From positions 35,156,332-35,220,331 of the forward strand of contig NC_135549.1 of NCBI RefSeq assembly GCF_964340395.1: a DNA stretch of 64,000 bases, written 5' to 3'. Under the pieces are notes generated by a model. That model was given only the letters and a program-made list of their open reading frames with translations, was not told where the DNA came from and did not search any database. Shown here one piece after another: positions 30,373 through 48,577 of this stretch. Every line of letters begins with the position of its first letter. Positions within the stretch are counted from its first letter, which is position 1. A program made the translations under genes and the position numbers. Source of the stretch: Glandiceps talaboti (taxonomy: Eukaryota; Hemichordata; Enteropneusta; Spengelidae).

Positions 30373-30536
30373 GTTCAGTTTTAAAAAGATTTGGCGCCAT
30401 CATAAACGCCACCAACTAAACCTCACTATCTCTGGATATTCCGCATTCCATTTATCCCAAAATCGTTTTAAAATTTGGTTCTGTGAAAATGCTTCCATTT
30501 TCAACTCTGGTATTAACGCAGCTTGTCGATATTCTC

Positions 30537-31019
30537 CTAAATATAATAGAATTGCTTTATAATTACGCTAAAGTTGAGTGATCGCATGCTCCGGTATCGT
30601 GTTGGTTCTATATAAACTTTAGTTGAAACTTCATTAATTGATAAAAATATTATAGTAACAGTTCTTAAAAGATAATAATTTAGTTTATATTTTTTAAAAA
30701 CTTTTTTAATATGGTTTTTAGGGTTATAGACGCTTCGACTGTTGCTGCGACTTCTACTTTTTTGACTGCTTCGACTTCTTTGGTCATGTTCAAAGTTTTC
30801 ATCTACCCTTCGGAAAGGTTCGTATCCTCTATTTAATGAATTACAACAGTCAAAACAGTGAAACCTTCCATAGATCTTGCCACAAATGTTTTTACAAATA
30901 CTCGAAGGGTCCTCACGAGGGTGAAACTTCGTAAACTTTATATTGATTTTTTTACATATGTTACAATGTACGATGTTATACCAGTTTTTTCGTTTACTTT
31001 TTTGTTCATTAAATCGCAA
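30537..31019 (-). CDS. Polinton: Cys-rich small protein
   Basis: A protein of 160 residues. The N-terminal half has metal-binding spacing: HCNICK near 19-24, then SICKNICGKIYGRFHCFDCC near 40-59, consistent with one or two zinc knuckles. A basic Arg/Ser stretch (RSSQKSRSRSNSRS) follows near residue 83, and the C-terminus is basic and hydrophobic. It is the last gene at the left end. No homologue is recognised; a nucleic-acid-binding role is inferred from the Cys and Arg/Ser content only. Confidence 0.5.
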   Translation of the reverse strand: MRFNEQKSKRKNWYNIVHCNICKKINIKFTKFHPREDPSSICKNICGKIYGRFHCFDCCNSLNRGYEPFRRVDENFEHDQRSRSSQKSRSRSNSRSVYNPKNHIKKVFKKYKLNYYLLRTVTIIFLSINEVSTKVYIEPTRYRSMRSLNFSVIIKQFYYI

Positions 31020-31109
31020 TAAAGTTGTTTATATAATTGGCATTCCATTGTCGATTATAGTTAGTTACCAAATGCGTGTACCGCCACAAGTTTTATATTA
31101 TATTATATA

Positions 31110-31601
31110 TTATATTTTTTTTATTAAATAAACTAATAATATTCCACCACCAGCTAAATAAATGTATTGATATAACTTCATATCATCGGAAGGTTGGTAA
31201 TAGTCACTAAATTCGGGTTCATTTTTAAGACTGTTAAGACTGTCAAGACTGCCGAGTGTACCGCCGCTACCGCTACCGAAGGTAGGACTCTCTGTACTCT
31301 CTGGATGAAATTCAAGATATAAATTTAAATTTTGATCAGTCAGAACCAGATTTTGTCTCGCATGAACATCTAAATTTTTTTGTTTCGCTATAAAATCTAA
31401 TACTTTCTGTCTATGTTCCAACCATACTTCTCGATCTTTATTGAAATTCTCCAAAGCTAAATCATGTCTATTTAATTCTTTTTCATGTTCTTCTTTCATA
31501 TCATCGTCACCTGAAGCTGCCTTAGCTATATAACTACCTCCAACAAAGGCAGTTGCATTTAAAATAGCTCCACCAACTATCATCGCAACAGCTGCACCCA
31601 T
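31110..31601 (-). CDS. Polinton: conserved RHDLALE-type protein
   Basis: A protein of 163 residues. It opens with a Gly/Ala-rich hydrophobic segment (AAVAMIVGGAILNATAFVGG) that could enter a membrane. A coiled helix follows (HEKELNRHDLALENFNKDRE, EHRQKVLDFIAKQ), then NLVLTDQNLNLYLEFHPE and FSDYYQPSDDM, and it ends in a second hydrophobic stretch (YIYLAGGGILLVYLIKKI). This pattern is common to an uncharacterised protein found in many animal Polintons and is probably a virion membrane component. A Gly/Ser linker sits near residue 115. Confidence 0.75.
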   Translation of the reverse strand: MGAAVAMIVGGAILNATAFVGGSYIAKAASGDDDMKEEHEKELNRHDLALENFNKDREVWLEHRQKVLDFIAKQKNLDVHARQNLVLTDQNLNLYLEFHPESTESPTFGSGSGGTLGSLDSLNSLKNEPEFSDYYQPSDDMKLYQYIYLAGGGILLVYLIKKI

Positions 31602-31683
31602 TATGTATCAGTATGTATAAGTATATATACTGTCAAGACTATTAAGGGATACATTATTTTTTTAATATTATTTTTTTAATATA

Positions 31684-31935
31684 TTACATTCCTTTATAAG
31701 GATCAACCGGCAACATATTTCTTTGTTCCAACATATCTTTCTCTAATACTGCGGCACTTATAGCTATTGTGAGAGAAGCAAACTTCTTAAATGAAGTACT
31801 TGTTTTAGGACTGTCTGGAGCCATCTTCATAGTTTTGTCAAGTATAAAACTATTAGTTATTGTTAAAGCAGATAAAACTGCACCATCATATAGACCATTT
31901 ACAATTAGTTTAGTATAGTCCGTCATTGCTTTCAC
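31684..31935 (-). CDS. Polinton: small conserved hydrophobic protein
   Basis: A protein of 83 residues beginning MKAMTDYTKLIVNGLYDGAV, or at the internal Met of MTDYTK. The VNGLYDGAVLSALTI segment resembles short Polinton proteins with a xxGLYDGGVLxxxT motif. It is amphipathic with a second apolar helix (FASLTIAISAAVLE). A membrane-active virion peptide is plausible, but no function is known to me. Confidence 0.6.
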   Translation of the reverse strand: MKAMTDYTKLIVNGLYDGAVLSALTITNSFILDKTMKMAPDSPKTSTSFKKFASLTIAISAAVLEKDMLEQRNMLPVDPYKGM

Positions 31936-32035
31936 TGTCTTTCAGTATATTGCATATATATTATATAATATATAAAAATAAATGAAATAAAAAAAAAAAA
32001 AAAAAATTAATGTTTCATATCCTCGTTCCTTTCTT

Positions 32036-32542
32036 TTATTCCATTTCAAGTAGAGCTTGTGGAGCTTGCGGGGCACTATTTTTAACTGATTCATCCTTCG
32101 GTAATGTAGTTAATTGTTTAGACGCTTGCGGGTCTGGTGACGACTTGATGCTATACCCTTCGGAAAACCATTGTCTTTCGTGAACTTTATAATATAAACC
32201 AGCTGCTCCAATTACTAATGAACCAAGAGTTAATAAAACCATAGTCCTACCGATATTATGAAATTGCGAGCTTTCGTTGCTTTCAGTTGCCTCCGTTGAT
32301 CCCATTGATTTAACGTTATCGTTAACTCTATCGACTTTCATTTTTAATTTTTTTCGTTTTTTTGCTTCAGCTGAAATTATTGCTAATTTTTTTCCCCATT
32401 CAACTCGACCTGGATTTTTAGTTTTACCCTTCGGACTGTTTGTAGTAACAGTTTCATCCTTCGGTACTTGAGTTTCATCCTTTGGTACTTGAGTTTCTAC
32501 TTTGGGTTGTGTTACACTTGCTTCGACTTCTGTATCACTCAT
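32036..32542 (-). CDS. Polinton: basic single-pass protein, virion-core-like
   Basis: A protein of 168 residues. The N-terminus is acidic and repetitive (two copies of QVPKDET, encoded over copies of the CCTTCGG motif), followed by a basic NPGRVEWGKKLAII-type segment and AEAKKRKKLKMK. One membrane segment (TMVLLTLGSLVIGAAGLYY) lies near residue 113. The PGRVxxGKKLA phrase recurs in small basic Polinton proteins thought to be core proteins. The C-terminus is rich in Pro, Gln and Ala. Confidence 0.65.
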   Translation of the reverse strand: MSDTEVEASVTQPKVETQVPKDETQVPKDETVTTNSPKGKTKNPGRVEWGKKLAIISAEAKKRKKLKMKVDRVNDNVKSMGSTEATESNESSQFHNIGRTMVLLTLGSLVIGAAGLYYKVHERQWFSEGYSIKSSPDPQASKQLTTLPKDESVKNSAPQAPQALLEME

Positions 32543-32549
32543 TTTTACA

Positions 32550-32552
32550 TTA

Positions 32553-32610
<58 letters not shown>
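32550..32610. repeat. (TA)n microsatellite between Polinton genes
   Basis: A run of about 23 TA units within an AT-only spacer upstream of the 32036-32542 gene. It may also act as its promoter region. Confidence 0.95.
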
Positions 32611-32640
32611 ACTATATAATACAAAAAATATTTTTTTAAA

Positions 32641-32952
32641 TTACTTTAATTTTTTGAAACTCTTTTCAACTAAGTCAAGTTCCAAGTTGTTTTCAATATC
32701 TTGATCAAGTTCTTTAACAAGTTCTTGTGCATGTTGTCCCAAGTCATTACTCAAGTCATTCAAGTCATTACTCAAGTCACTTTTCTTGAGATAAGGGTGA
32801 AGAGTATATGTTTTAGACTCATGATAATATCTAAAAATAAAAATTTTATTATTATCTCCTCCAGTTAATTTTTTTGCGTTAACATCTCTGAGATCATCAA
32901 GTCCAAGTCCTTGAGATCTTCCAATACCTTGTTCAAAATTTGATGTCATCAT
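32641..32952 (-). CDS. Polinton: short protein with L-x-DL-x-DV module (fibre-like)
   Basis: A protein of 103 residues. After MMTSNFEQGIGRSQ comes GLGLDDLRDVNAKKLTGGDN, then NKIFIFRYYHESKTYTLHP. This is the compact module widely seen at the base of phage and viral fibre proteins (LDDLSDV, then a Gly-Asp turn, then a Tyr/Trp-containing strand). The rest is charged with Asn/Asp-Leu repeats (SNDLNDLSNDL) and an amphipathic helix. It is paralogous to the genes at 40800 and 41445, and a partial copy of its C-terminal half lies at 33045-33260. Confidence 0.65.
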   Translation of the reverse strand: MMTSNFEQGIGRSQGLGLDDLRDVNAKKLTGGDNNKIFIFRYYHESKTYTLHPYLKKSDLSNDLNDLSNDLGQHAQELVKELDQDIENNLELDLVEKSFKKLK

Positions 32953-33044
32953 TATAGTATGTAATATAGTTATACTATATATATATATGTTTAATACAAA
33001 AATATCTTAAATATTTTTTTTTTAAATTACTTTTTATACTTAAA

Positions 33045-33260
33045 TTATTTTATTTTTAATCAAGTCAATTTCAAGTTGTTTTCAATATCTTGATCAAGTT
33101 CTTGTTCATGTTCTTGATCAAGTTCTATAGCAAGTTCTCTAATAAGTTCTTGATCAAGTTGACTCAAGTCCGAAGGGTTATTAAAGTCATTCGAGTCCGA
33201 AGGGTTATTCTTTTCAGTCAAGTCACTTTTCTTAGGGCAAGTGTGTGTTGCAAAGTTACT
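33045..33260 (-). pseudogene. Polinton: partial copy of the fibre-like gene
   Basis: The minus strand encodes a stretch with KKSDL, then QELIRELAIELDQE and LDQDIENNL, clearly related to the C-terminal half of the neighbouring 32641-32952 protein (VKELDQDIENNLELD). It looks like the remnant of a tandem duplication inside the element. Confidence 0.6.
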
Positions 33261-33767
33261 TTAAGAGTGAAACTCTATATTATTTAAAATAGTGACACCA
33301 CCACTTGTCAATGCCAAAAGAGGGCCATAATTATATGCTAACTTTCCAGTAAGTTGTTTGAATTGACTCGTAACGAGAAAATTGTTTTTCAAGTCGTCAC
33401 TTAATTTATTCACATCATGTACTGGAAGCACAAGTCCTACTAATTTACTAATCCCAAATAAAACTCCATTTGCAATGTTGTCACTGACGAGAGAACTGTA
33501 AGTGCTTTCATATATCTTATAATATTTTTTAATTTCTTTATCGCTCGCTTTTTCAATATATTCGAGAGTGACATTTTTTCCTAAGAAAGCTTTTGATTGT
33601 CCAGCAGCAATGATACAAAGTAATCTTTCTCTGTACTTTACTATTGGAGATGCTTCCGGTCGGTGCGGGACTTGTTCCCTGCGGTCTGTTGTTACTGTTC
33701 CTACTGGTGTTGGTACCGGTAGGGTTGATTCAACTGGCTGTAAAATTTCTGCCAACGACTGTTCCAT
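33261..33767 (-). CDS. Polinton: unrecognised 168-residue protein
   Basis: The N-terminus is Pro/Val/Thr-rich (LPVPTPVGTVTTDRREQVPH). The middle contains YRERLLCIIAAGQSKAFLGK and a Lys/Glu-rich helix. The C-terminal half has weakly hydrophobic helices (ANGVLFGISKLVGLVLPV, YNYGPLLALTSGGVTILNNI). It lies between the fibre-like genes and the ATPase. A structural or membrane-associated virion role is only a guess. Confidence 0.55.
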   Translation of the reverse strand: MEQSLAEILQPVESTLPVPTPVGTVTTDRREQVPHRPEASPIVKYRERLLCIIAAGQSKAFLGKNVTLEYIEKASDKEIKKYYKIYESTYSSLVSDNIANGVLFGISKLVGLVLPVHDVNKLSDDLKNNFLVTSQFKQLTGKLAYNYGPLLALTSGGVTILNNIEFHS

Positions 33768-33933
33768 TTCACAAGTTTTATATTATATGTATGTATTAAA
33801 TATTTGCGTATTTTTAAAAAATAGTATATGATACCTAACTGAATAAATATCCATAAAATATTGGTAACATCATTGGTTAACATCGTAAACATCGTAAACA
33901 TCGTAAACTTTATACTAGATCGTTCCACTTTAG

Positions 33934-34516
33934 TTATACTAAATCTATACTATACGGTTGTCTTAAACGAAATACTAATTTACTATAAGGAGTATTTTTT
34001 AATTGTTTTATATATTCACTAATTTCTTCCTTATTTAATTCCATTCCATAGTTTTCAATTATTTCTTTAACATCATTTTTACTCGGTGTGTAATAAAGAA
34101 CTAGCGTGCCGATGTTTTCTCGAAATGTCTTAGCGATACTCGTAACATACGCTAATATTATCATGACGAGCTGAAAATGCTAACTTAGTTAAAATATTGA
34201 CACGAGATTTGACATCCTTTGTGAAAGCGCAGTCATCTACTATGATTAGACTTTTTGTATTTTTATAACACTCATACGCGAATTTAATAGTTTCATTTAT
34301 TTTTTCTATGTTGGGAATCATTATAATAATGTCTGAGTCTTTGTAAATACATTTTTTATCGTAAGCTTTATTGTTTATGAACATCGGACAGATTATGATT
34401 ATATAATCGAATACGTTTTTATAATACGTTTGTAATAGTTCCATAATGAACTCTGTTTTACCCGAACATGTCGGTGCACTAATAAGCATATTGAAAGGAG
34501 GGTCAAGCCAGATCAT
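33934..34516 (-). CDS. Polinton: packaging ATPase (FtsK/HerA-type)
   Basis: The gene region spans about 195 codons, the usual size. The Walker A loop is SAPTCSGKTEF near residue 15, Walker B is SLIIVDDCAF near residue 90, and the N-terminal WLDPPFNMLI matches the start of these genome-packaging ATPases of Polintons and related viruses. It would power DNA entry into the capsid. It lies next to the major capsid gene, as is typical. This copy does not look intact. Confidence 0.85.
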
Positions 34517-34589
34517 TTTAGAGTTATCCTCAGTATATACTAAGTATATACTATCCTATACTATCAATAATGTTAATAATGTTAAAATG

Positions 34590-35840
34590 TTAATATATAA
34601 TAGATTTTAATTTAGATCCTTCAATATTAAGCAAAGCATCACTTATAATGAAAATATTCGCGGTTATTCTTTCTTGCGGGTCTGTGGATTCTCGTTGAAT
34701 TTCCAGTTGAACCCCATCTTTTGTGTTCACGACTTTCAGACCACTACCATGATATCTATTATCCTTAAAACTTCTTAAATCAATAAACAAACAATATTTA
34801 TTTAATAGAAAGTTTTCCTCAGTTATTTTCTCTAGTTTATCGCAACAGAACTCGGATGACATGAAATAACGTCTGGTTTCTTCCCAAAATTTTCTAGGAG
34901 ATAATCCCTGTGCATACACTTTATTTGCGATACCTTCTATCGTTATTGAAACAGAATTAATACTAGGATTAAAGAATAATTCGGTATCTAATGCATTTTG
35001 TAGCTGCGGTGTACTGAATAATATAAAAATTCCTTTCAAGCTTCTACGTGGTACATTAATGTTCTGATTAATAATTGTTTCCGTACCGGGGAAGTTAAAT
35101 GTTCTCTCATGTTGAATATGTTCGTAAAGAACGCTTTTACCGCTGTTATAATAACCATTAATTTCCATAGCTAACTTTGAATCTCTTATCGTTTCATATT
35201 CAAGTTGAATGTTTTTTAAAGCATAATCCCAACTAGTCGTGTCTTCACTTACTGGGATTTTATTAACGGGAGTGAGAGTAATCTCCCATTCGATATGGCT
35301 TCCTAAGCTCGAAGGATATACGGCTCCATGACCATTCATTATAGGATGCAATTTCGCTAGATCGATCGCGTACTTTTTACCGTATGCCTTATGAAGTGCA
35401 CCCTCTTCTAAATAATTCCCGCCACCAACTCCATCGATATTATCGCTTCTCAATTTTCTGAGATTTTCTGACTGAATTCCATACAACGTTTTATTTGTTC
35501 TATCCGAATACAGATCTCTATACGTTTGTATTAAATTGTAGTTTGATAAATCCATTAATTTTGCCCCTTCGAATTTTAAAATTAAATTACTTACGATGTT
35601 AGCGGACAGGTTTTGAACAACGAAGTTCTTATTATGACCGTTTAGTTTAAGATCAAAAACGAGATTGAATTTACCCGTTAGAACAACAGTGTGTTCTAAT
35701 TTTGGACATCTGATATATAAAGTTTCACCGGGTTTTGCGCTATTTGGATTATTCGTTACAACGTGATGAGTTCGTTCTCCTTTACTACCGAGTGCGTTAA
35801 ATTTTGAGTAGTCACCTTGTAGTTCTCTATTGTAAGGCAT
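34590..35840 (-). CDS. Polinton: major capsid protein (double jelly-roll)
   Basis: A protein of 416 residues. Its size, position next to the ATPase and strand-rich pattern fit the PY-type major capsid protein of Polintons. Early strands (ETLYIRCPKLEHTVVLTGKF, NLVFDLKLNG) are followed by VSNLILKFEGAKLMDL. The second half carries the NVPRRSLKGIFILFSTPQL segment and ISPRKFWEETRRYF-like helix that in this family link the second jelly roll to its end (DLRSFKDN). The frame is open throughout. The assignment is by overall pattern, since no short catalytic motif exists. Confidence 0.75.
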   Translation of the reverse strand: MPYNRELQGDYSKFNALGSKGERTHHVVTNNPNSAKPGETLYIRCPKLEHTVVLTGKFNLVFDLKLNGHNKNFVVQNLSANIVSNLILKFEGAKLMDLSNYNLIQTYRDLYSDRTNKTLYGIQSENLRKLRSDNIDGVGGGNYLEEGALHKAYGKKYAIDLAKLHPIMNGHGAVYPSSLGSHIEWEITLTPVNKIPVSEDTTSWDYALKNIQLEYETIRDSKLAMEINGYYNSGKSVLYEHIQHERTFNFPGTETIINQNINVPRRSLKGIFILFSTPQLQNALDTELFFNPSINSVSITIEGIANKVYAQGLSPRKFWEETRRYFMSSEFCCDKLEKITEENFLLNKYCLFIDLRSFKDNRYHGSGLKVVNTKDGVQLEIQRESTDPQERITANIFIISDALLNIEGSKLKSIIY

Positions 35841-35937
35841 TTTTCTTTTACTATATCTATACTATATCTATACTATATATTATACTATATATTATACTAA
35901 AATACATTTCATTCATTCATTTATTTATTTTTTTTAG

Positions 35938-36696
35938 TTAAAATCCGTTCATACAGGTATATATCGCTATTGCAGTTGCCAACAGCCATACATGTTCAGC
36001 TATAAATCCTACAACTTGTCCCGCTGTTTTTAAAACGAATGACACGATAGTACCGATAATACCCGGCAACGCTATAGCTGCTTTATTACCTAACCATTTT
36101 AATACATCCGCAACACGTTTAATAACCGCTTTGACTGGACCACTACCACCGCTACCGCTGCCACTACCGCTACCGCTGCTACCAACGGGTGGTGATTTGA
36201 TGCCTAATGCAATAGCTATTGTAGTTATAACTAAACCGAGTGCTGTTGCCAATGAAACTATAGTAACTCCATTGCGTTTGAAAATAATCACCAGTTTATC
36301 TTTAATACTAAGATTCGAGTCTTTGAGTACTTCTTTCAAAGAAGATGTCTCAGCTAATTTATTGTGTAAAATATTAGTTTCTTTATTATATTTTAAGATA
36401 TGAATCTCAATTCTACCTAATTCCTTTTTTTCATCTTGCGTTAATTCTTCGATTTTTTGTCTATTTTCCAATTCTTTTTTTCTATTATACAAATCTTCTA
36501 AACTTTTGACTGCTGTATCAATTTCTTTACGCATGATTGTATATTCAGGATTGAGTTCATTCCATTCTTCAATTTTGTGTTCGATCTTACTGATTTCATC
36601 TTTATTACCTGCAGTGTCTCTTCTGAGAAAAGCTTGTTGGTCCCTTAATTGACCAACCATTGATGGTGTGAGATCTATAGCTTCGACTTCATCCAC
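35938..36696 (-). CDS. Polinton: conserved coiled-coil/membrane protein
   Basis: A protein of 252 residues. A long coiled coil occupies residues 20-115 (KIEHKIEEWNELNPEY, EDLYNRKKELENRQK). SIKDKLVIIFKRNGVTIVSL starts a hydrophobic region, a Gly/Ser linker (SSGSGSGSGSGGSG) follows, and the C-terminus KWLGNKAAIALPGIIGTIVS, FVLKTAGQVVGFIAEHVWLL forms two further apolar helices. This LPGIIGxIxSFxxKTAGxVVGFxAE tail is a hallmark of an uncharacterised protein seen in most animal Polintons and probably belongs to the virion membrane. Confidence 0.8.
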   Translation of the reverse strand: MDEVEAIDLTPSMVGQLRDQQAFLRRDTAGNKDEISKIEHKIEEWNELNPEYTIMRKEIDTAVKSLEDLYNRKKELENRQKIEELTQDEKKELGRIEIHILKYNKETNILHNKLAETSSLKEVLKDSNLSIKDKLVIIFKRNGVTIVSLATALGLVITTIAIALGIKSPPVGSSGSGSGSGSGGSGPVKAVIKRVADVLKWLGNKAAIALPGIIGTIVSFVLKTAGQVVGFIAEHVWLLATAIAIYTCMNGF

Positions 36697-36698
36697 AT

Positions 36699-37166
36699 TT
36701 ACCCTTCGGAAAGATCCGGCAGCAGCAGTGTCAACAGCAGTGTCCTATTAGCAGCTGCAGTACCAATTTTACTTTTTATCGTACTATAAGCTAAAAGTTT
36801 ACCGTTTCTCGTAATGTTTTTATTTGTTACATTATCATACAACTCTCCATCTTTTCCTACATGTGTTTTTAATTGTAATTCAGTTCTATTAACTGGCACA
36901 CCACTTTTTTGGATAACTTCATCGATAGTACCCTCCAATATTTTATTTTTTAATTCAAACAATTTAACTTCAGCAGGATCAACGAAATCTGTGGGTTCAA
37001 CTGTAGGATCAGTGAATGATGTTTCCTGCTCCATTAATTCAAAATCCAACGAATCTTGTTCGTAGTCATCCGCTGGTGTCATTTCCAAGTCTTCCGTATC
37101 GAAGGCTGTGTCATCTACATTAATATCGAAAGGATCAAAGTCAGTCATCTTACTAATGTTATACAA
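36699..37166 (-). CDS. Polinton: acidic N-terminus protein, unrecognised
   Basis: A protein of 155 residues, or 149 if translation starts at MTDFDPF. The first 65 residues are strongly acidic (FDINVDDTAFDTEDLEM). The rest is mixed alpha/beta (FELKNKILEGTIDEVIQKSG, HVGKDGELYDNVTNKNITRN). It ends three bases before the next gene's start. No homologue is recognised. Confidence 0.5.
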   Translation of the reverse strand: MYNISKMTDFDPFDINVDDTAFDTEDLEMTPADDYEQDSLDFELMEQETSFTDPTVEPTDFVDPAEVKLFELKNKILEGTIDEVIQKSGVPVNRTELQLKTHVGKDGELYDNVTNKNITRNGKLLAYSTIKSKIGTAAANRTLLLTLLLPDLSEG

Positions 37167-37169
37167 ATA

Positions 37170-37652
37170 CTATATAAATAAGTAACTTAAAAATATTATC
37201 CCGACTATTATTCCCATCGTTGTATATTCATGAACAACGTCACCGCCAGGGCTCTCACCATGCGCTGCTCCTAACGGTCCAACCGGTACCATTGCTTCGG
37301 CTGCTGGCGCTGTTCCTACCGGTACCATTGCTTCGGCTGCTGGTGATGCTACTGATTCTAGTCGTTGCACCGGATCATCATGGCCTTCCATTTCTTTTAA
37401 TGCCGATTCTTTTACGTCATTATTTATGTTGTTATAACCGAACTTCATATCTTCTGTCGCTTGTTGTAAAAAATTGTTATAACCCGCCACATTCATATTC
37501 AAATTTATAATCATTTTACTCGGGATTAACCATAAAGAAGGAGAAATGGCTAGATCTAACTTTACCCTCGTTGCATTAATTACATTTTGATAACGAGGTA
37601 TACTATCGTCCTCATTAATGCCTCTCGTCTCATCCTCGAGTAATGAAATCAT
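37170..37652 (-). CDS. Polinton: C-terminally anchored membrane protein
   Basis: About 160 residues starting MISLLEDETRG at 37652. The start overlaps the upstream gene's stop as ATGA (37649-37652), suggesting coupled expression; the longer frame upstream reads another gene. VKLDLAISPSLWLIPSKMII and NLNMNVAGYNNFLQQ lie in the middle. A repeat PAAEAMVPVG occurs twice before an Ala/Gly/Pro stretch, and the last 15 residues (GIIVGIIFLSYLFI) are a tail anchor. Function unknown. Confidence 0.6.
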   Translation of the reverse strand: MISLLEDETRGINEDDSIPRYQNVINATRVKLDLAISPSLWLIPSKMIINLNMNVAGYNNFLQQATEDMKFGYNNINNDVKESALKEMEGHDDPVQRLESVASPAAEAMVPVGTAPAAEAMVPVGPLGAAHGESPGGDVVHEYTTMGIIVGIIFLSYLFI

Positions 37653-38746
37653 TTTTGTCTCGTTTCTTGTCCAGCACCGCCAGAGTCTGCTATACTTACT
37701 CGCGTGTCTGCTTGACTTCCTAACACGCAATATACATAAGATTCGATCGATCGATTCAATCTTCCTAAACCCGCTTGCGTAAAACCCACGCTACTCGGTA
37801 AAACAAAATAATTGTACTGCTTATAATCGGGATTTTGAAATTTATACCAATGCCAACTTCTGCGAGCCTCATCTGGAGCATCAGGTAATTCAACCATTGT
37901 ATCTTGATATTTATATTGAATATCTTTTATATATGGTTTTTTCCACCACTCATAACCGACACCTATACCATTGTTTCCCGATGTGTCATACGTGAATCTG
38001 AAATATGTATTATAATCTAATCCGAATTCATCGCATATTTTATGATAAGACGGTAAGTCATATAAATTATCGATTTTATTAAAATTATCGGGTTCGTCGG
38101 GCAGTGGGCAAGAAAGTTCATTCAATATTCTTCTTATAGTAAAGTACACGTGAAATTTAAAAAATGATTGAATCTGTCTCGGAATATCATCATTACACAG
38201 ATGATCATGAATACTAACACCGCATCCGGTCGTAGCTAACCAAACAGCAAAATTCAATTGTTGATCCCAGTAACCCATATTTGGACCTTTCAACCATTTG
38301 TTAGCACTGTCTGCATTTTTATGAATTAATATATAGTTTTTGAATATATCTCTCAATTTTATATTGAATCGATCGGTTTTACTTACATAAACAACCATGT
38401 TAACTAATTTATCTCGTATATCCACGGATAACTTTTCATCAAATGGTTGATGTAGTGCATAGTTAGCATTTTGTGCTAGAGTAAATGTTTTTGGAAAGTG
38501 TAGCAAATTAGACTGTGACGACTGCTGCAGTGGTGGCTGCTGCGGCTGCATAGTCACAGGGGCTGAAGCAGCGGTATTTGCAGCGGTAACAGCAGCGGTA
38601 ACAGCAGCGGTAACAGCAGCGGTATTTGCAGCGGTAACAGCAGCGGTAACAGCAGCAACCTTTTTCTCTAAAAACAATTTATGTAACTGTTTATTTCCGA
38701 AGGGTGGCTTTGTTTTTTTCGTATCTGGTAATACTAATGACCACAT
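37649..38746 (-). CDS. Polinton: conserved structural-type protein (365 aa)
   Basis: Residues 30-60 are an expanded Ala/Thr/Val repeat (VTAAVTAANTAA). The conserved body begins near residue 85. Characteristic phrases are LNFAVWLATTGCGVSIHDHL near residue 165, FKFHVYFTIRRILNELSCPL, YHKICDEFGLDYNTYFR and GFTQAGLGRLNRSIESYVYC near the end. This is the set of an uncharacterised protein present in many animal Polintons, probably a virion component. The frame is open. Confidence 0.7.
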   Translation of the reverse strand: MWSLVLPDTKKTKPPFGNKQLHKLFLEKKVAAVTAAVTAANTAAVTAAVTAAVTAANTAASAPVTMQPQQPPLQQSSQSNLLHFPKTFTLAQNANYALHQPFDEKLSVDIRDKLVNMVVYVSKTDRFNIKLRDIFKNYILIHKNADSANKWLKGPNMGYWDQQLNFAVWLATTGCGVSIHDHLCNDDIPRQIQSFFKFHVYFTIRRILNELSCPLPDEPDNFNKIDNLYDLPSYHKICDEFGLDYNTYFRFTYDTSGNNGIGVGYEWWKKPYIKDIQYKYQDTMVELPDAPDEARRSWHWYKFQNPDYKQYNYFVLPSSVGFTQAGLGRLNRSIESYVYCVLGSQADTRVSIADSGGAGQETRQK

Positions 38747-38773
38747 TTTTCTAATACATATATATTAAAGGGT

Positions 38774-39130: not shown

Positions 39131-39156
39131 TTTGTACTATACATTATTACATTACA

Positions 39157-40257: not shown

Positions 40258-40278
40258 AGTGTATTATATTAGTAAACA

Positions 40279-40794
40279 TTATTTTTTGATTATTTTTGAT
40301 TTCGTACCACCCGATGGTCCGGTCTTACCAGTATCTGAATAACCATTCAGTTTGTAATACTTTAAATAACGTTCTAAAGGTGGAGTATAATTAGCTGATT
40401 TTTGCATTTCGAGAGACTTCATAAATACTTCTTGAATAAGTTCTTGAGGTGTTTCGGAGTAAATATTTGCTTGCGTATATGTTAGTAATTCTTTGAAATT
40501 CTTATATTGTACTTTTAATCGCGATACTTTATCCGATACTTTTAAGTTTAGGTTTACAACTGTAACGACTATAGGAACAGCTGCTAATAAACTAATAAAA
40601 ACAGGTATCGCTGGAACGGCAGCTAATGCACCAACTCCCGAAATAATTCCACTAGTAATAAGTATACCTTTATTAACACGACTTAATAATTTATAAGAAC
40701 GTCTATACGCACTACATACCCGAGTAAGATAATCGACTAAAGCTTTCAGGTCTTGTACCGTTTTAATATTTTGATCAATCATTTGCGGTATCAC
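40279..40794 (-). CDS. Polinton: membrane protein, unrecognised
   Basis: A protein of 171 residues. The N-terminal helix QNIKTVQDLKALVDYLTRVC is followed by a long apolar region (GILITSGIISGVGALAAVPA, IPVFISLLAAVPIVVTVVN) that could make two membrane passes, then a basic helix (DKVSRLKVQYKNFKELLTY). The C-terminus is Gly/Ser/Lys-rich. It starts 6 bp from the fibre-like gene. It could be a membrane-active capsid protein. Confidence 0.6.
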   Translation of the reverse strand: MIPQMIDQNIKTVQDLKALVDYLTRVCSAYRRSYKLLSRVNKGILITSGIISGVGALAAVPAIPVFISLLAAVPIVVTVVNLNLKVSDKVSRLKVQYKNFKELLTYTQANIYSETPQELIQEVFMKSLEMQKSANYTPPLERYLKYYKLNGYSDTGKTGPSGGTKSKIIKK

Positions 40795-40799
40795 TACAA

Positions 40800-41390
40800 T
40801 TATGCTATATATTTAAAAATATTATTTTTTAAAGGTTTGATAATCAAAGTGGAACGATAAGTTATTTTTGTATAACCACGATCGAAGACCGTAAAACTAC
40901 GAGTGACTTTAACCCTTTTTTTAGTATGAATTAATCGAGACACAGATGCCGGTATAATTTGTTTGTTTATAACGAATGTTGAATGAGATATTTTAATTTT
41001 ATCATCGAATTTTATATTAAAATTAATTATTGAGCTCTCTTCAATATCCTTAGAAATACTAGCGGAGTCTATAAAATGTTGAATGTGATAAGCTCCTGGT
41101 TGAATAAAGTAATCATTTGTATCACTATCAAATATTACCTTATCCGTGTTTATCATATGAGAAAATTCATTTACGAATAATCTAGCAATTTTTTTATAAT
41201 CTAATTCAATTATCGCAATCCCTGGCTCCGATATTGTACCGCTAGGCGTAGGCTTTGGAGGTGGAATCGGTTTTAATTTAAACGTATTATTTTCATATTC
41301 TAACTGATATTTAACACCTGGTATTGTTCTCTCTTAAATTTAAAATCCCTAAGATCTTTAAGAGATAAGTTGAGAGATTCATTCATTTTT
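40800..41390 (-). CDS. Polinton: third fibre-like paralogue
   Basis: The region opens with LNLSLKDLRDF, followed by a strand resembling YQLEYENNTFKLKPIPPP, matching the L-x-DL-x-D module of the genes at 32641 and 41445. The C-terminal 118 residues (INTDKVIFDSDTNDYFIQPG, HSTFVINKQIIPASVSRLIH) are strand-rich, as in receptor-binding heads. This copy does not look intact. Confidence 0.5.
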
Positions 41391-41444
41391 TTTATCTATT
41401 TTTTATTAATCATGTATATTAAATACTAATTTAAAAATACTAAT

Positions 41445-42464
41445 TTAAAATACTTTAAAACTGATAAGAATCATACGTTTCAAAGTTATTGTTTTGATAT
41501 CTATAAACTTTAACCCTTGTGTTATTGCGTATAACACTTCAGTTTCCTCTTCTTTTAACGTAGATAATACTTTATTTTTTGTAAAAGTAACGTTAATATT
41601 ATTGTTTTCAATATGAATTTCAATAGTTAATAATACACGTCGGTCACACTTTATTGAAATTCCATCTAAAAGAGTATCGTATTCACCCTCAGTATTTAAT
41701 TTAATACATTTAATAAAAATGGTACCTTTGGTTACTTTCTTTATATCATCCACTGCCACATCACTAGCACTAGACAATTTTAGTTTAGCCACATCAACAG
41801 GTTTCAAACCGAATGTTTTAAACTGCGTATCATAAAATATTTTAATAGTTCCTTCATCAATGTTATAACTAAAATACCATTCCCCTGAACCTGAATTAAT
41901 AATTTTTTGAAAAGTATTATTTGCCGTCATTATTGTTCTTATAGCATCCAATTTTAATTGCATTTTTGGATTCAACAGGTCTAGTCTAGGATCTGGTTCC
42001 AATGGTTCTGGTAAATAATGTCTGATATCAGCTAAACTAAATGTTTTATCATTGTCATTATAAACTGACACATAAGGAACTCGATCAGTTAAACCATGAT
42101 CGATAGTTAATGGTTTTTCAAGCATTTCGACATAATCTCGTGGTAAATCAAAAGTATAGAACTTGGCATCTCTGTTGCTATACGCAAAACCAAATGGTAT
42201 ATGATATTTTGTTACTTCTTTATATTCTTCAATCGTATCATCCACATCATTTAAATCTGCTAAATTATTAGTATGCTCGTGCGATTTAATTGCCGCTGGT
42301 TCTATATTAAATGATTTAGAACTATTTTTCCATTTTAAGACGAAATCTTTATTATTATTACGTCCGGTTAAATATGGTGTGGGTGTGTAAACATCTTTAA
42401 GATCATTAAGTTCAAGTCCTTGAGGTGTTATCATACCTAGTCCAAAATCTGATGGCGATGGCAT
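41445..42464 (-). CDS. Polinton: large fibre-like protein
   Basis: About 340 residues from MPSPSDFGLG at 42464. I prefer this start because it places LELNDLKDVYTPTPYLTG and NNNKDFVLKWKNSSKSFNIE near the N-terminus as in the paralogue at 32641, and leaves an AT-rich shared promoter before the + gene at 42535. The body is beta-rich and polar (SGSGEWYFSYNIDEGTIKIF, EGEYDTLLDGISIKCDRRVL), as for trimeric attachment proteins. A receptor-binding role is inferred from the module only. Confidence 0.6.
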   Translation of the reverse strand: MPSPSDFGLGMITPQGLELNDLKDVYTPTPYLTGRNNNKDFVLKWKNSSKSFNIEPAAIKSHEHTNNLADLNDVDDTIEEYKEVTKYHIPFGFAYSNRDAKFYTFDLPRDYVEMLEKPLTIDHGLTDRVPYVSVYNDNDKTFSLADIRHYLPEPLEPDPRLDLLNPKMQLKLDAIRTIMTANNTFQKIINSGSGEWYFSYNIDEGTIKIFYDTQFKTFGLKPVDVAKLKLSSASDVAVDDIKKVTKGTIFIKCIKLNTEGEYDTLLDGISIKCDRRVLLTIEIHIENNNINVTFTKNKVLSTLKEEETEVLYAITQGLKFIDIKTITLKRMILISFKVF

Positions 42465-42534
42465 ATTATACTCGCAAGCGTATTTATATAATTCGTATAT
42501 ATATATACTATACATGAAATGATATATTAAAACA
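42465..42534. promoter_or_regulatory. Divergent TATA-rich promoter region in the Polinton
   Basis: A 70-bp spacer between two outward-facing starts contains TATATATATACTATACATG and TATTTATATAA. It is the only divergent gene pair in the element. Confidence 0.45.
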
Positions 42535-43200
42535 ATGAAGTTGTATATAAACAAACAATCTAGTGATATTACTATCAATTTTACAGAAACGCTGGTTGGT
42601 TATAAACAGATACGATTATTAGAGTGTAAACTATATAATTCCTGGCATAATATTACGAAAGAAAACAATGAAATTGCTTTTACCGCTAACAATAAAACGT
42701 CAGTTAAAAAAGTAGAACCGGGTAATTACAATGTAGAAACATTATCGCAAGCGATTGGTAGATCGCAATTAATTAATTTTAAGAGAATTGTAGCAACGGG
42801 AAAAACACAAATGATACTCAGTGATAATGTTAAAGTAAACTTTTCAAAGCCTAAGAATTTTGCGAGATTACTTGGTTTTGAAAAGAAAGAATATATTTCA
42901 TCGGGTATTAGTCCAAACAAAGCAAATTTTCTTTCTGTGACTGAATACGTAGTCCATTGCGATATTATAGATACACCTACTAATTACATCAATGGGAAAA
43001 GGTCTGGTTATTTACAAATTTTAATGTTAGAGGACCAGGATGATATAGGAAAAGCTACCACTTATTCATTTCCCGATAATGTTCTAGTACCCATCAATCA
43101 AATGTATATATCTAATCTTCGAATTTGGATAACTGATCAAAATAACGTGCCAATAGCTTTTAATGGTCAACCAATTTCATTTCTACTCGAGCTAACTTAG
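42535..43200 (+). CDS. Polinton: minor capsid (PX/penton-type) candidate
   Basis: A protein of 221 residues, the only + strand gene in the element. RLLECKLYNSWHNI, KVEPGNYNVETLSQAI, ARLLGFEKKEY, VHCDIIDTPTNYINGKRSG and YISNLRIWITDQNNVPIAFN follow the order of a conserved beta-rich Polinton protein generally equated with the single-jelly-roll minor capsid protein that forms the vertices. The frame is open. Its stop lies 33 bp from the convergent polymerase stop. Confidence 0.65.
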   Translation: MKLYINKQSSDITINFTETLVGYKQIRLLECKLYNSWHNITKENNEIAFTANNKTSVKKVEPGNYNVETLSQAIGRSQLINFKRIVATGKTQMILSDNVKVNFSKPKNFARLLGFEKKEYISSGISPNKANFLSVTEYVVHCDIIDTPTNYINGKRSGYLQILMLEDQDDIGKATTYSFPDNVLVPINQMYISNLRIWITDQNNVPIAFNGQPISFLLELT

Positions 43201-43233
43201 AGCTTGCGAAGGTTACTAACGTTACTAAGGTTA

Positions 43234-46200
43234 CTAACAGTTACCATCCTTCCTCCCTTCGGTATCGGTCGCATCCTTCGGTAAATCAACGTGACCATAT
43301 GCTAACGTGTTATGATGATCGAGAACATAGCGTTTATCATTGAAGCAACTCAAAGAAGTCTTATTGATTGTATAACTACCGACCCGGTGATTTATCGATC
43401 GAATAGTGTTCATGGAATGCTTAATTTGTAAATTTTCAAAAAGGACAGTCTTATATTCTTCGTGAGTAATATTCTTTTTAATAACTATCTTTTTAATACC
43501 TTTTGCTTTCCGGGTTGACGAAGTTCCAACTAAAGTTTCTGTGATATAAGAATACATTTTACTTCGAAGTCCGATAAATTCGGTAATTGGTAAACCGGCG
43601 CATTCATCTTTCATTTTACCGATTACTCTTTTATTAAAACCAAAATAGTATGGACTCTCAGTTGAGTAATCACTATTATCGAACAGGTCTTTGTCTCGAT
43701 AGAAATCTTTATAGGGATCAACAGCGGTAATTTCATACATTAATGAGTCGGTATCTGTGAATAACAACTTTGCTAATGAACCATATTTTTCTTTGATATA
43801 GTTGTAATGAAAGTCATACATTAAAGTTTTAGACAAATCAAGAATACTCATTCCAACATATAAAGGTTGGTTTAGGGTTAATCTTTCCTTTTTGTTTTCA
43901 ACAGCAACCAATCCTTTAGTTATAATTTTTTGCGTAACGAACGTTGGTTTAGATACTAATTTTTTTATTTGTTTTTCCGTCGTACATAATTTTATATTAC
44001 GATGCTTACGTACATTCATCATGGTTCGTCCAAATACAGAGTTGTTCATTAGTTTGAAGAAATCTTTTTCGAATGCATTTTTAGCTTTCTTTCTTTTTTC
44101 CGTGTTAAATAAAATGTATTGCGACATCCACTTCGATTGATTAAACTCAATAGCTCTATGGATTTTAGTGACTTTTAACCGAGTGATAAATATTGTTTTA
44201 AGTTTTGAAAATGAAGTACGTAATTCCTTTTTGGTTTCAAAGTTGTAGTTAATTTCTCTATATTTCCGCATTTGATATTAAATAAGTCACGTATCTTTTT
44301 ATTATGCGGAGATAACATGTCTTCGGTAATACATAATCTCTCAGGAGCTAAAGGATAATCGTTGTGGAGATCGTGCAACTCATTAGGATACTCCAGATCG
44401 ACTTCAAGAATTAATCCACGTTCACTTTCATTGGTATAATTACTTAAAAAGTCTAAGTCTAGCTCACCAAGGCCATTTACATCAACCCATTTAAATTCAT
44501 CAGTTGGTAAAGATTGAACCATTGCCCAACCATACAAATTATTTGCGTCTAAATACATTATGTATTTTGATTCCTGGGTTGAGTCATAATCTTTCATATA
44601 TGGATTGTTTGCCTTTGCATGGCCAGCGGATATATAAGAGATACCACCACGAAGACCTTTTTCTATAAAGAGATGCATATCTATATCCTTTAATACATGT
44701 AATTCGAGATTAATTTTAGTCATTTTTAAGCAGACATCCCAAGATAATCCCGGAGCGCTGAAGTAATGACAAGGGTCGAGGTTATAGTATAGATTGCATG
44801 TTTTTCGAAATTTTCAAATACATCAGTTAATAAAAGTACATCAGTTTTAAGGTACAGATCATGATAATCACCCATGGTTTGCATATTAAAATGCTTCCAA
44901 ATATCTTGCGCATGTTTATAATCTTCATCGGTAATACCAGTCTCATTTAGTATAGAATAGAATGTTTCCTTTAGTGGAAGATTAACATCGTTAAATTTTT
45001 TTCAACGGAATCCATGTAGTCATAGGGGTATACACCCTTCCGTGTTAGTAATTTTAAGCTATTGGGCTTGTATTCCTGTTCCATGTATTTAAAACAATCC
45101 GTGTTACTGACGAGTTTTTCTAATGAAGCATTCAAGAAATTTAAACTATCTATGAAGACTAAATTAGTACCAACCATTATAGCCATAAACTTTTCCATAG
45201 AATGTGGGATAATACTAATCTTTTCATTAAAATTTTCAAGGGTTTGTACGATGAAATGACTGTCATATCCTTTTAAATTGTGGAATATAACGGGTATTTT
45301 CTTCGTTACTTGGAAATTAATATTACAAGATTCATGCGCTGAACCACGGTATTTACCGGTAATATGACAATGATCACGGACTCGTATATCAGTTTTCTTG
45401 TATGGTGTTTCACAAATATGACATTGCATCGCTTTTTGGAAACAGTTTTCATCACTCGTACTCATACACAGAGGCTTGTTAAAATGTCGTTGTTTAATAT
45501 CCTTACAATAATCAACTTCCGATAACATCATTTCCATGAATTTCTTGGATGCCTCTGGTCCTCTGTAAATAACACTTTTTTTACTAAATGTATCATCGTA
45601 ACAACAAACTAGTTTATAACCGAAACTACATATTTCATGCTTTTGGTAATGTTGCGTGAATTCCGTATTAATACCATTAGGATTATTCACTTTTTCGGTT
45701 ATAGATTCAAAATCTGCGTAAATAACAAATGGTGCATTTAATTGTTTTGGGTAATTTTTAAATGATAACCATTTATATTCTTCGGTTGGCAACCGTATAG
45801 CCTGCGTCTTGTTTATTTCGAAACAAATGGGAATATGTTTATTTAAAATCTCTACGGTTGAAAAATGCTGCAAACAATATCTACAAAAATGTTTTATTCC
45901 ATTATGTTTTGTTATACCGTGCATGAATCGATTAAAGTCTTTGATCCAAACGTAATGTTTTTGGTTATCACCACGAGTTATTAGTAGTAAATCAAGATGA
46001 TCTGCATCCTTCCCTTCGGTCGGTACCGCTTCACTAGTTTGTTTACTAACGTAAATTGGATATGCTTGTTTATTATGATTGTAACCAAATACGGAAATAG
46101 ATATATTATTTTGGTTTTCGATTTTAGGTATTTGTTTTATTGTTACTGGAAATGTGATTCCTCTATAATCTAAATCGTTAATATGTTGTTTGTATCTCGA

Positions 46201-46623
46201 TGGCCTATATTTATGATTTTCGACTGGAAACTTATACGCTAAATGACACCATTTAAAGCACTCATTATCGGTATTTTGAATGTTAATGAGGCCCTTCATT
46301 GGGTTTTGTAGTTCTTTCAGCAATTTTATATACGAGTTACCTCGTAAAGGTTCGTATCTTACAATATTTACATAAAAATTAAGCAACGTTTTTACTCGCC
46401 AACCAGAACCTTCACGTAGCCATTTAGCGATGTGTTCAAGAATTCTTTCGAAACTGACGCTCATTTGTTCGTCTATTTGATCGGGGTTTGTAATTACTAA
46501 TGGACTACTATTAAAATAACCATTATTTGTTATTTCAGTGTCCATATTGTTTACGTTACTACCGTTACTTGCGTTACTTGCGTTACTTGCGTTTAAGTTG
46601 TATTTAGCAAATTTTATGTTCAA
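43234..46623 (-). CDS. Polinton: protein-primed family B DNA polymerase
   Basis: The region is about 1,130 codons long, the usual PolB size. The 5' part holds a C2H2-like finger (HFCRYCLQHFSTVEILNKH), exonuclease motif I (FVIYADFESIT), a CxxC..H zinc site (CHICETPYKKTDIRVRDHCH) and exonuclease motif II (IFHNLKGYDSHFIV). The middle has polymerase motif A (IMYLDANNLYGWAM). The 3' part has motif B (FFKLMNNSVFGRTMMN) and motif C (LLFTDTDSLMYEI). It would copy the element by protein priming at the inverted ends. The region is not intact in this copy. It is convergent with the minor-capsid gene. Confidence 0.93.
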
Positions 46624-46662
46624 GGTTAATATTGCTTTTATTCCACCTTGATCTTCTAAATT

Positions 46663-47262
46663 CTAAAGTTCTTTTATTAAATATTTATTTTCAATTAATT
46701 GCGTATGAGGTTCATTCGCAGTAATATCAATTTCATACGACTTAACGTAGCCTCTAAAAGCTCTCTCGAGTTCACGGTATTTAGGTGGTATTAAAACACC
46801 ACCAACGTGACGATAGCCTTTATTAATAAAAGTTTGATATGTATCATTTCCTATTTTAATCATGCGTTTGGTAATAGGATTAATGATATATTGTTCCGTT
46901 AATGGTCGGAGGAGACCGCTAGGTACCGACCAATCTAAGATATTCTCAGGCAATGGCTGTAGATTGCCATTCCGTATAAGTTTATTATATACACGTCCAC
47001 CGACCGTTATCATTCGCTTAGTGAGTGGGTTCAAAATCTTTGTCATATAAACCTTAGGTAAATGTTGTAAATTACCATTCTGTAAAAGCTTATTGTATAC
47101 ACGTCCACCAACTGTTATCATTCGCTTAGTGAGTGGGTTCAAAATCTTTGTCATATAAACCTTAGGTAAATGTTGTAAACTGCCATTCTGTAAAAGCTTA
47201 TTGTATACATGTCCGCCAACTGTTATCATTCGCTTAGTGCGTGGGTTCAAAATCTTTGTCAT
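46663..47262 (-). CDS. Polinton: four-repeat '2-Cys adaptor'-like protein
   Basis: A protein of 199 residues. Three near-identical copies of a 36-residue unit (KILNPLTKRMITVGGRVYNK) and one diverged copy (INPITKRMIKIGNDTYQT) are followed by a unique tail (PPKYRELERAFRGYVKSYEI). The N-P-x-T-x-R-x-I-x-x-G-G-x-x-Y core is that of the 2-cysteine adaptor domain known from giant viruses and Polinton-like elements, though here the flanking Cys residues are absent. The near-identity of three copies points to recent in-frame duplication of 108 bp. Confidence 0.75.
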   Translation of the reverse strand: MTKILNPRTKRMITVGGHVYNKLLQNGSLQHLPKVYMTKILNPLTKRMITVGGRVYNKLLQNGNLQHLPKVYMTKILNPLTKRMITVGGRVYNKLIRNGNLQPLPENILDWSVPSGLLRPLTEQYIINPITKRMIKIGNDTYQTFINKGYRHVGGVLIPPKYRELERAFRGYVKSYEIDITANEPHTQLIENKYLIKEL

Positions 47263-47454
47263 ATTGTATATAATTACATATAATCAAAAAGATTTTAATA
47301 TTCAAATATAAATTTATTAGTTCAATTGCTTTTTTCTTCTTAACTTGTAAGTCTTAAAAACATTGAAAACTTGTTAAACTTACAACTTTTATTTTATGTA
47401 TGTATGTATATAAGGTATATAAGGCCCGTAGGGAAGAATAACCCTTCGGACTAC

Positions 47455-47790
47455 TTAATCTCTCTTAAGTTGTTTAATGCAATGTGTACTTCTATTTAAA
47501 TGTTGCTTTAAATGAGGTAAATAGTTGTACGCAAATCCACATTTACCGCAAGTAAACTCAGGAAAAACACGTCCGCATGTAAAACATGCATCAGGGTGTT
47601 CACGTTTTCTATTCTCGCAGGAATGTTTTATATTTAAATGTTTTAAAAAATTATATTTTTGTTTAAAACATTGGTTACATTTGTCACATTTGTATTCTGG
47701 TGCCGACCTACCACAAGTGGGACAGTTCTCTCGTATAAAACAAATCCGAAATCCAGAACGATTGTTTGACATTTTGAATTTAATATTCAA
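47455..47790 (-). CDS. Polinton: double zinc-ribbon/C2H2 protein
   Basis: A protein of 111 residues, possibly starting at MSNNRSG. Two similar halves each combine a CxxC pair and a C2H2-like finger: CPTCGRSAPEYKCDKC then a KHLNIKH helix, and CFTCGRVFPEFTCGKCGFAY then HLKQHLNRSTH. It is the gene closest to the right end and could bind DNA or RNA. No precise family is recognised. Confidence 0.65.
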   Translation of the reverse strand: MNIKFKMSNNRSGFRICFIRENCPTCGRSAPEYKCDKCNQCFKQKYNFLKHLNIKHSCENRKREHPDACFTCGRVFPEFTCGKCGFAYNYLPHLKQHLNRSTHCIKQLKRD

Positions 47791-48133
47791 GTATGTATAT
47801 ACATATCTATTATTATATGTTTAATTGAATAATCTGACATTGATAACCTTCGTTACCTTTGTAATCTGACCTGGAAACAGTATGTAGCGAGTGAAAATAT
47901 TTGTGACATGTTGAAACATATTTAGTGTGTTAGCTTAACCAACTTGCCCTGCTATGCAGCTACGCATAAACATTCCTGTGGTAACCTGAGGCGACAGCTG
48001 TGACCTGAGGCAACATTTCAATTAGAGACATGATACATTTAACTAATGTATGTGATTAACCGACAGCGTGACTGGCAAGACTGGCAAGACTGGCAAGACT
48101 GTATGTACATACATACTTATTATCTGTTTAAAT
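47791..48133. other. Polinton right-end spacer
   Basis: Non-coding stretch between the zinc-ribbon gene and the right inverted repeat. It contains about three and a half copies of a 10-bp unit CTGGCAAGA at 48068-48100. Confidence 0.6.
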
Positions 48134-48397
48134 AAACACCGGTAGGATCTGTGACCGCTAGGAGGCTCACTACCGATAGTGGTACCGAAGGATGCGGTTA
48201 ATTTACTTATAACAGCTACAGCAAATTTAGTCATTTTTTAGCCAATTTTTACGAATAAGATTTATTTTGTCTTTTAACGGATTATATAGATATAAAAAAA
48301 TATATTAATAAATTTATTAATATAGGAAAGAGACTTTATTTGACTATATAATAGATTAAAAAAGAAGTGGCCCAGCTTTCTCTTTTTACATACTACT
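48134..48397 (-). repeat. Polinton right terminal inverted repeat
   Basis: Inverted partner of 30119-30372, a little longer owing to an AT-run. It carries an intact CCGAAGG motif (48185-48191). Confidence 0.95.
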
Positions 48398-48403
48398 CTG
48401 GTG
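48398..48403. repeat. Polinton target-site duplication, right
   Basis: CTGGTG, identical to 30113-30118. Confidence 0.95.
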
Positions 48404-48577
48404 TATGCAAATGAGATGGAATGTCCAGAGACTGTCGACGAGTGTGAAGCTACCATAATAATAATATTTATTTTTATATACCGTAAATCCATAAAATGCT
48501 CTAAACGGTTCACAAAGTTAAAAAAAAGAAAAAGCACTTGACATTAAAACAATACTTCGATACATCTTAAAAGACAA

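Follow-up and report, generated by a model that had tools for sequence, protein, structure and literature searches.

The heptamer CCTTCGG in a Polinton of Glandiceps talaboti as the probable core of a recurrent 9-bp insert

The stretch of DNA considered here, called the window below, comprises 64,000 nucleotides from the hemichordate Glandiceps talaboti (RefSeq assembly GCF_964340395.1, contig NC_135549.1, positions 35,156,332 to 35,220,331) and contains a Polinton (Maverick) at positions 30119-48397. Within that element the sequence CCTTCGG is found 16 times, counting both strands, and in the remaining 45.7 kb of the window it is not found at all. How does a mobile element come to hold so many copies of one short word? 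The initial annotation of the window had listed the copies, every one at its exact coordinate, had noted that they are absent from the rest of the window, and had offered as explanations a signal for packaging, priming, uptake or regulation, or else a small motif that recombination had spread. The answer proposed here is that the heptamer is probably the core of a 9-bp unit inserted widely in some of the Polintons of this genome, and the commonest member of a wider class of GC-rich 9-bp inserts with the form of miniature inverted repeats. The 9-bp unit, the insertion of other 9-mers built in the same way, and the heptamer's own nature as a miniature inverted repeat are not part of that annotation.

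The abundance of the heptamer was judged against several background models. The number expected in the Polinton alone is 0.57 (order 1) to 0.67 (order 2), in line with the earlier estimate of fewer than about one. None of 100 dinucleotide shuffles of the whole window, the check that had been suggested, reached 16 (mean 1.78, largest 5), nor did any simulation under Markov models of orders 1 to 4, with 300 at each order, the maximum being 9, at order 4. The shuffles and Markov models rule out chance and composition as the cause of the excess. Eleven of the copies lie in open reading frames (ORFs), where synonymous codon shuffling gives an expectation of 1.24 (largest 6 of 500); this disposes of codon usage and amino-acid sequence as the cause. 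The copies occur in differing reading frames and in both orientations, and the division of the 16 between strands, 11 on plus and 5 on minus, is not a significant bias (two-sided P 0.21). The 21 heptamers that differ from CCTTCGG by one base sum to 24 occurrences, against 17.4 expected. Both extended forms that had been described exist in the element: ACCCTTCGGA with 8 exact copies and none with one mismatch, and CATCCTTCGGTA with 4 exact copies and 3 with one mismatch.

The copies are distributed among genes, spacers and the right inverted end, as the initial annotation had it, and several sit in protein tails, linkers and spacers; the two in the polymerase tail lie past the conserved YGH end. 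The near-copy that had been seen in the left inverted end is CCTTCAG at 30315, opposite the exact copy that the right end has at 48185. One of the 16 copies falls in intervals chosen as conserved genes (6,858 bases), with a P of 0.006 that is biased, because the intervals were picked by hand and omit the polymerase tail and the insert where copies lie, and that is not used as support. A search for structured RNA gave no Rfam match at gathering score within 30000-48600.

The nature of the copies emerges from comparison with other Polintons of the same genome. The genome amounts to 590 Mb in 47 contigs and gives 128 matches to one piece of the polymerase region, some of which are parts of a single copy. 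Twenty sister stretches were retrieved and aligned to the window. At seven of the 16 sites (32095, 32157, 32428, 32458, 33170, 33197 and 43256) one or more sisters are shorter by exactly 9 bp, as in TTTT[ACCCTTCGG]ACTG against TTTTACTG, and which sisters are empty varies from site to site (Table 1). Left-aligned on the CCTTCGG strand, the inserts are ACCCTTCGG, ATCCTTCGG or, at 43256, TCCCTTCGG, and at 33170 and 33197 the other strand gives GTCCGAAGG. Most of the inserts also admit the reading CCGAAGGGT or CCGAAGGAT, which on the opposite strand are ACCCTTCGG or ATCCTTCGG. Other 9-mers sit in sisters at or near some of the heptamer sites, and in the sister stretch L054 units are nested within older units. 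Conservation of position between copies, which the initial annotation had put forward for checking, is thus not what is seen: the sites differ among sisters as exact 9-bp insertions. The same variation makes the small motif spread by recombination the nearest of its guesses. At 30807, 31276, 36703, 38697, 46013, 47443 and 48185 the sisters show complex gaps or replacements, or few or none cover the site. The copy at 39582, which nearly all the covering sister places keep without gaps, is probably a coding coincidence.

Table 1. Coordinates in the window of the Polinton, of its 16 CCTTCGG sites and of other 9-bp inserts, with the state of each site in sister loci (L numbers).
Feature	Position	Strand	State in sisters and other observations
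Polinton	30119..48397	.	holds all 16 CCTTCGG; target duplication and inverted ends; rve/chromodomain and A32 by Pfam
CCTTCGG, ACCCTTCGGA form	30807..30813	+	present in 3 of 6 covering sister stretches; rest differ with complex gaps
CCTTCGG in Gly/Ser-rich stretch	31276..31282	-	word in 2 of 7 covering sister stretches; L065 substituted; 4 gapped
9-bp insert ATCCTTCGG (heptamer 32095)	32093..32101	+	exact 9-bp gap in L055, L058
9-bp insert ACCCTTCGG (heptamer 32157)	32155..32163	+	exact 9-bp gap in L053, L068
9-bp insert ACCCTTCGG (heptamer 32428)	32426..32434	+	exact 9-bp gap in L055, L058; filled in L053, L054, L065, L068
9-bp insert ATCCTTCGG (heptamer 32458)	32456..32464	+	exact 9-bp gap in L058, L065; filled in L053, L054, L068
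9-bp insert (heptamer 33170)	33168..33176	-	exact 9-bp gap in L058; filled in L065, L068
9-bp insert (heptamer 33197)	33195..33203	-	exact 9-bp gap in L068, the closest covering sister
CCTTCGG at final codons of ORF 36699-37148	36703..36709	+	in 0 of 6 covering sisters; L064 has CCTTTGG
CCTTCGG near start of ORF 37649-38746	38697..38703	-	0 covering sister alignments
CCTTCGG in integrase ORF	39582..39588	+	of 7 distinct sister places, 6 keep it ungapped and the seventh has CCTTTGG
9-bp insert TCCCTTCGG (heptamer 43256), polymerase ORF tail	43254..43262	+	exact 9-bp gap in L049; other gap lengths in most other sisters
CCTTCGG, polymerase ORF tail	43275..43281	+	overlapping 9 bp (43269) absent in L049; present in L024; L068 has CCTCCGG
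CCTTCGG in polymerase ORF stretch that 4 of 4 distant relatives lack	46013..46019	+	27-28-base gap in L067, the sole covering sister
CCTTCGG just beyond stop of zinc-finger ORF 47455-47772	47443..47449	+	19 bases in common with the 33197 copy
CCTTCGG in right inverted end	48185..48191	-	left counterpart CCTTCAG at 30315
9-bp insert ATCCGCTGG, other word of class	37068..37076	.	gap in L062, L068, L070, L072
9-bp insert TCCTACCGG, other word of class	37314..37322	.	gap in L068
9-bp insert CTCGCAAGC, other word of class	42471..42479	.	gap in L024, L062, L071; shifted by 2 in L032-L036, L046
9-bp insert GAGCTTGCG, other word of class	43200..43208	.	gap in L026, L027, L029, L039, L067, L071

Pairwise comparison of sequence from the window and from the sister loci yielded 1,108 local alignments that span 300 bases or more at 80% identity or above, from which indels with clean flanks were taken and merged by context. 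Sites of 9 bp number 133, as compared to 95 of 3 bp, 49 of 6 bp, 41 of 8 bp, 31 of 10 bp, 40 of 12 bp and 33 of 18 bp. The peak is more pronounced among non-tandem indels of at least 55% GC, with 47 sites at 9 bp and 13, 7, 5, 2, 5 and 5 at the other lengths in the same order. Words recur at separate sites: among the 133, CCGAAGG (the heptamer on its other strand) is found at 10, GCTTGC at 7 and CCGGTAGG at 5. The GC-rich 9-bp sites amount to 55 of the 133, and of the 39 that could be placed on the window, 38 are in ORFs, using all three codon phases (17, 11 and 10; P 0.32), so insertion is not codon-wise. The junction is unambiguous at 24 of those 39, ambiguous by one base at 6 and by two or three at 9, roughly what I reckon for random junctions. 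A small host-like control of 96 indel events contains six of 9 bp, none of which reaches 5 GC of 9. The control holds 9 CCTTCGG in 122 kb, a figure that gives no fair density, because L015-L022 were retrieved by a pattern containing the word.

A second word, CGGTA/TACCG, is also abundant in 30119-48397 (67 occurrences against 21 expected, and in ORFs 55 against 23.6 by synonymous shuffle). Some of the 9-bp insert junctions can be read as TA joined to CCG, which may account for part of this excess.

The GC-rich inserts have a common form. Defining an inverted repeat as at least two GC pairs around a loop of 2-4 bases, 39 of the 55 GC-rich 9-mers qualify, as compared to 16.8 in shuffles (largest 27 of 500). 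The bias does not depend on the heptamer: with the CCTTCGG type removed and each 9-mer counted once, 27 of 42 are inverted repeats against 13.1 (largest 22 of 500). Examples of the stems and loops are CC-GAA-GG, CGC-AA-GCG, CC-TAC-CGG and GCC-CT-GGC. CCGAAGG and CGCGAAGCG are named as thermally stable DNA mini-hairpins in the available part of PMC9835594; the heptamer is identical, letter for letter, to one of the two. There the mini-hairpins are a tool of aptamer design, whereas folding in the Polinton is putative and further words of that kind show no element-wide enrichment. Selection for mini-hairpins across the whole element found no support.

The heptamer is unevenly distributed among the sister stretches. 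L054 has 12 copies in 6 kb and L068 has 9 in 10 kb, followed by L053 and L064 with 6 each, L065 with 5, L072 with 4, L069 with 3, L066 with 2, and L062, L063 and L070 with 1 each. Nine of the 20 have none, two of the nine being partly or mostly masked. The stretches L055, L056 and L058, which are free of the heptamer, are homologous to the window's richest part. The sisters therefore return a mixed answer to the initial annotation, which had counted absence from them against its motif, some stretches being rich and homologous ones empty. In a tree of 30 polymerase copies, five labelled motif-rich lie inside a clade of eight (support 99/97), not on one single branch; the labels draw on sequence beyond the polymerase locus for 16 of the 30 copies (in two of which it is masked in part or for the most part), and the other 14 are called not rich by the polymerase locus alone. 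The extended form ACCCTTCGGA has 201 matches genome-wide, fewer than the 557 of the same word reversed. Among the matches listed (the first 100 of 201), approximately 36 have a polymerase match no more than 16 kb away, in zones that make up about 0.5% of the sequence, and among those listed outside the window approximately 28 of 92 have one. Six more distant Polinton-type contigs contain 0, 0, 1, 2, 1 and 0 copies of CCTTCGG and none of ACCCTTCGGA; they show no enrichment, and the idea of a signal common to Polintons was rejected on that account. The strongest word of one distant relative, L013, is GAACCCA, whose 11 copies form one tandem array.

The units most likely arise on single-stranded DNA of the element, at tiny hairpins that prompt fold-back synthesis or a switch of template. 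A single strand or a DNA end would pair with itself over two or three base pairs, and a short stretch would be synthesized from the fold-back and then joined in; alternatively, an existing hairpin word may act as a hotspot for template switching and be copied together with a few flanking bases. The long single strands left by strand-displacement replication would favor either event. Successful words might later be copied, and the copies would persist where three additional codons cause little harm. The 9-bp inserts are probably without function for the Polinton. A more ambitious version, which I hold only tentatively and think somewhat doubtful, is that a dedicated or polymerase-specific process in these Polintons inserts 9-bp mini-hairpin units copied from earlier ones, steadily changing in frame the proteins of a virus-like element. 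If the units are copied from earlier ones, they would be the smallest spreading DNA unit known to me.

A number of observations weigh against this account. Nine of the 16 heptamer sites show no clean 9-bp gap containing the whole heptamer. Indels of 9 bp that are AT-rich are frequent too (GC is below 55% at 78 of the 133 sites) and adjacent tandem copies make up 22 of the 133, so part of the 9-bp peak is ordinary slippage. The GC-rich sites placed on the window include a single non-coding one (1 of 39), and in sequence outside ORFs no such peak is visible, lengths of 8 bp and 9 bp having 9 sites each. Since the peak is missing there, survival of the reading frame may trim a process that makes inserts of about 7-11 bp to those of 9 and so sharpen the peak; the non-coding result is weak either way, because non-coding sequence aligns poorly. 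The host-like control is small. Folding is a further difficulty, as the 10-12-base copies fold weakly by themselves (-0.2 kcal/mol or not at all in four forms from the element), and GNA-type mini-hairpin words apart from the heptamer show no enrichment across the element (6 against 6.5 expected). Finally, the identity of sequence at several sites indicates copying, which fold-back alone does not give.

Other explanations have to be set against the same facts. That the heptamer is a recognition signal for packaging, replication, transcription or DNA uptake, held exact by selection or molecular drive in the manner of bacterial uptake sequences, would fit the preponderance of exact over singly mismatched forms (clearest for ACCCTTCGGA, 8 to 0) and the presence of the word in both inverted ends, decayed in one of them. 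Bacterial uptake sequences likewise are short exact words, found on both strands and inside and outside genes, with singly mismatched copies fewer than exact ones, so far as the available part of PMC1939737 describes them. According to that same part, however, they arise by point mutation and biased uptake, and the sites in the Polinton are gained as 9-bp blocks. Functional sites should be kept, yet close sisters lack many of these, and the homologous stretches L055, L056 and L058 contain no copy; with no significant orientation bias and no enrichment in the six distant contigs, I consider the signals for packaging, uptake or regulation listed in the initial annotation quite unlikely, and a selected recognition site was abandoned upon the sister alignments. 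Ordinary templated insertion by the host's polymerase theta end-joining is unlikely, though it fits the stems: the available part of PMC11292364 reports stem-loop synthesis that starts from two base pairs and short inserts that can hold inverted repeats. That part describes neither a fixed length nor one word spread to unlinked sites, and polymerase theta by itself would give neither one preferred length nor one word at ten separate sites; nor do the six 9-bp events among the 96 of the host-like control resemble the GC-rich class.

The remaining candidates are weaker. Leftovers of terminal inverted repeats could resemble short inserts with an inverted-repeat center, and the recurrence of one core would agree with excision footprints of one or more DNA transposons. 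A constant target duplication is not seen, though, with 24 of the 39 GC-rich sites lacking any junction ambiguity; the many differing stems would require many transposon families; and no full transposon was noticed in sisters at heptamer sites, albeit without a search for one. Such footprints are very unlikely. I think it no less improbable that the gaps mark places where older words were deleted, each as a precise block of 9 bp. Presence and absence by themselves give no direction, and the words could predate the split of the sisters, but recurrence at separate sites and nested units fit gains, and the C12 copy (L055), which stands outside the clade of eight, is also empty at 32095 and 32428. 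Seeding of the heptamer from the inverted ends was considered and rejected, the matches being short and confined to class B. Hardly credible, lastly, is a tripeptide such as Pro-Lys-Asp expanded at the protein level in flexible regions: several copies do encode PK(D/E/G) and ORFs hold 38 of the 39 GC-rich 9-bp sites placed on the window, but the three codon phases are all used, the copies translate variously as PKx, xEG, xFG and PSD, and synonymous shuffling leaves 1.24 copies where 11 are seen.

The unit proposed here, a 9-bp insert with a miniature inverted repeat, has relatives of a sort in the Rickettsia palindromic elements, the double-hairpin elements and the GC clusters of fungal mitochondria, which are also short inverted repeats widely placed, some in frame within genes. 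Those are several times longer and fold well; the Polinton unit has 9 bp and a stem of 2-3 pairs. It shares with palindromic insertion elements an inverted-repeat form beyond what composition gives and one word, CCGAAGG, at 10 of 133 sites where relatives are empty. No account of this class of 9-bp inserts was found in the literature on Polinton motifs, repeats, hairpins, insertions or the heptamer, a literature covered apart from most subscription journals. The preferred length and the common inverted-repeat form of the GC-rich inserts point to a definite molecular mechanism, and sister copies within one genome supply occupied and empty sites ready for comparison, which opens the process to dating and testing. 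If it is tied to strand-displacement replication, the inserts would be a footprint in sequence of that mode of replication; if it is due to host repair, they would cast the repair of such DNA in a new light. There is also a caution in this case: short words overrepresented in mobile elements are not necessarily signals.

Polintons have terminal inverted repeats and duplicate 6 bp of their target, and here the duplication CTGGTG (30113-30118 and 48398-48403) flanks inverted ends of about 254 bp, which align over 254 bases with 5 mismatches and one 10-bp gap. Pfam recognizes rve (1.3e-08) and a chromodomain (3.6e-10) in the integrase ORF at 39157-40257, Pox_A32 (3.3e-10) of the packaging ATPase in 34130-34516, and a stretch resembling endonuclease VII. 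The polymerase region matched no polymerase profile in Pfam, PHROGs or the PDB set; I take it to encode a putative protein-primed family-B DNA polymerase from the motifs YLDANNLYG, LMNN..FG and TDTDS, which are conserved in distant relatives. The region is divided in the window into ORFs 44971-46545, 44175-44723 and 43234-44271, and is a single long ORF in the relatives L009 and L013, so the frame of the window copy looks interrupted. ORF 34590-35840, considered as a candidate for the double jelly-roll major capsid protein, has no sequence match in Pfam, PHROGs or PDB. The related reading frames at 32641-32952, 33060-33230 and 41445-42515, with tails rich in Asp and Leu or similar, suggest small gene duplications inside the Polinton. 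Five tandem arrays with a 9-bp period, equal in length to the dispersed inserts, lie at 33879-33908, 34566-34595, 43212-43244, 46554-46593 and 48070-48101.

Relatives of the Polinton polymerase, and in two cases of its integrase, were met in contigs of metagenome-assembled genomes filed under Spirochaetes (L010), Nitrososphaeraceae (L011), Oligoflexia (L012) and Alphaproteobacteria (L013); these are probably eukaryotic contamination. The observed/expected ratio of CpG is 1.20 in the Polinton, the left flank having 0.43 and the right flank 0.79, and three of the five differences between the inverted ends are at CpG, as expected for decay in a methylated host. The host flanks contain a 40-bp satellite and a 49-bp minisatellite (58313-64000 and 11074-12375), and ORF 27582-28175 of the left flank is similar to viral alkaline exonuclease/YqaJ.

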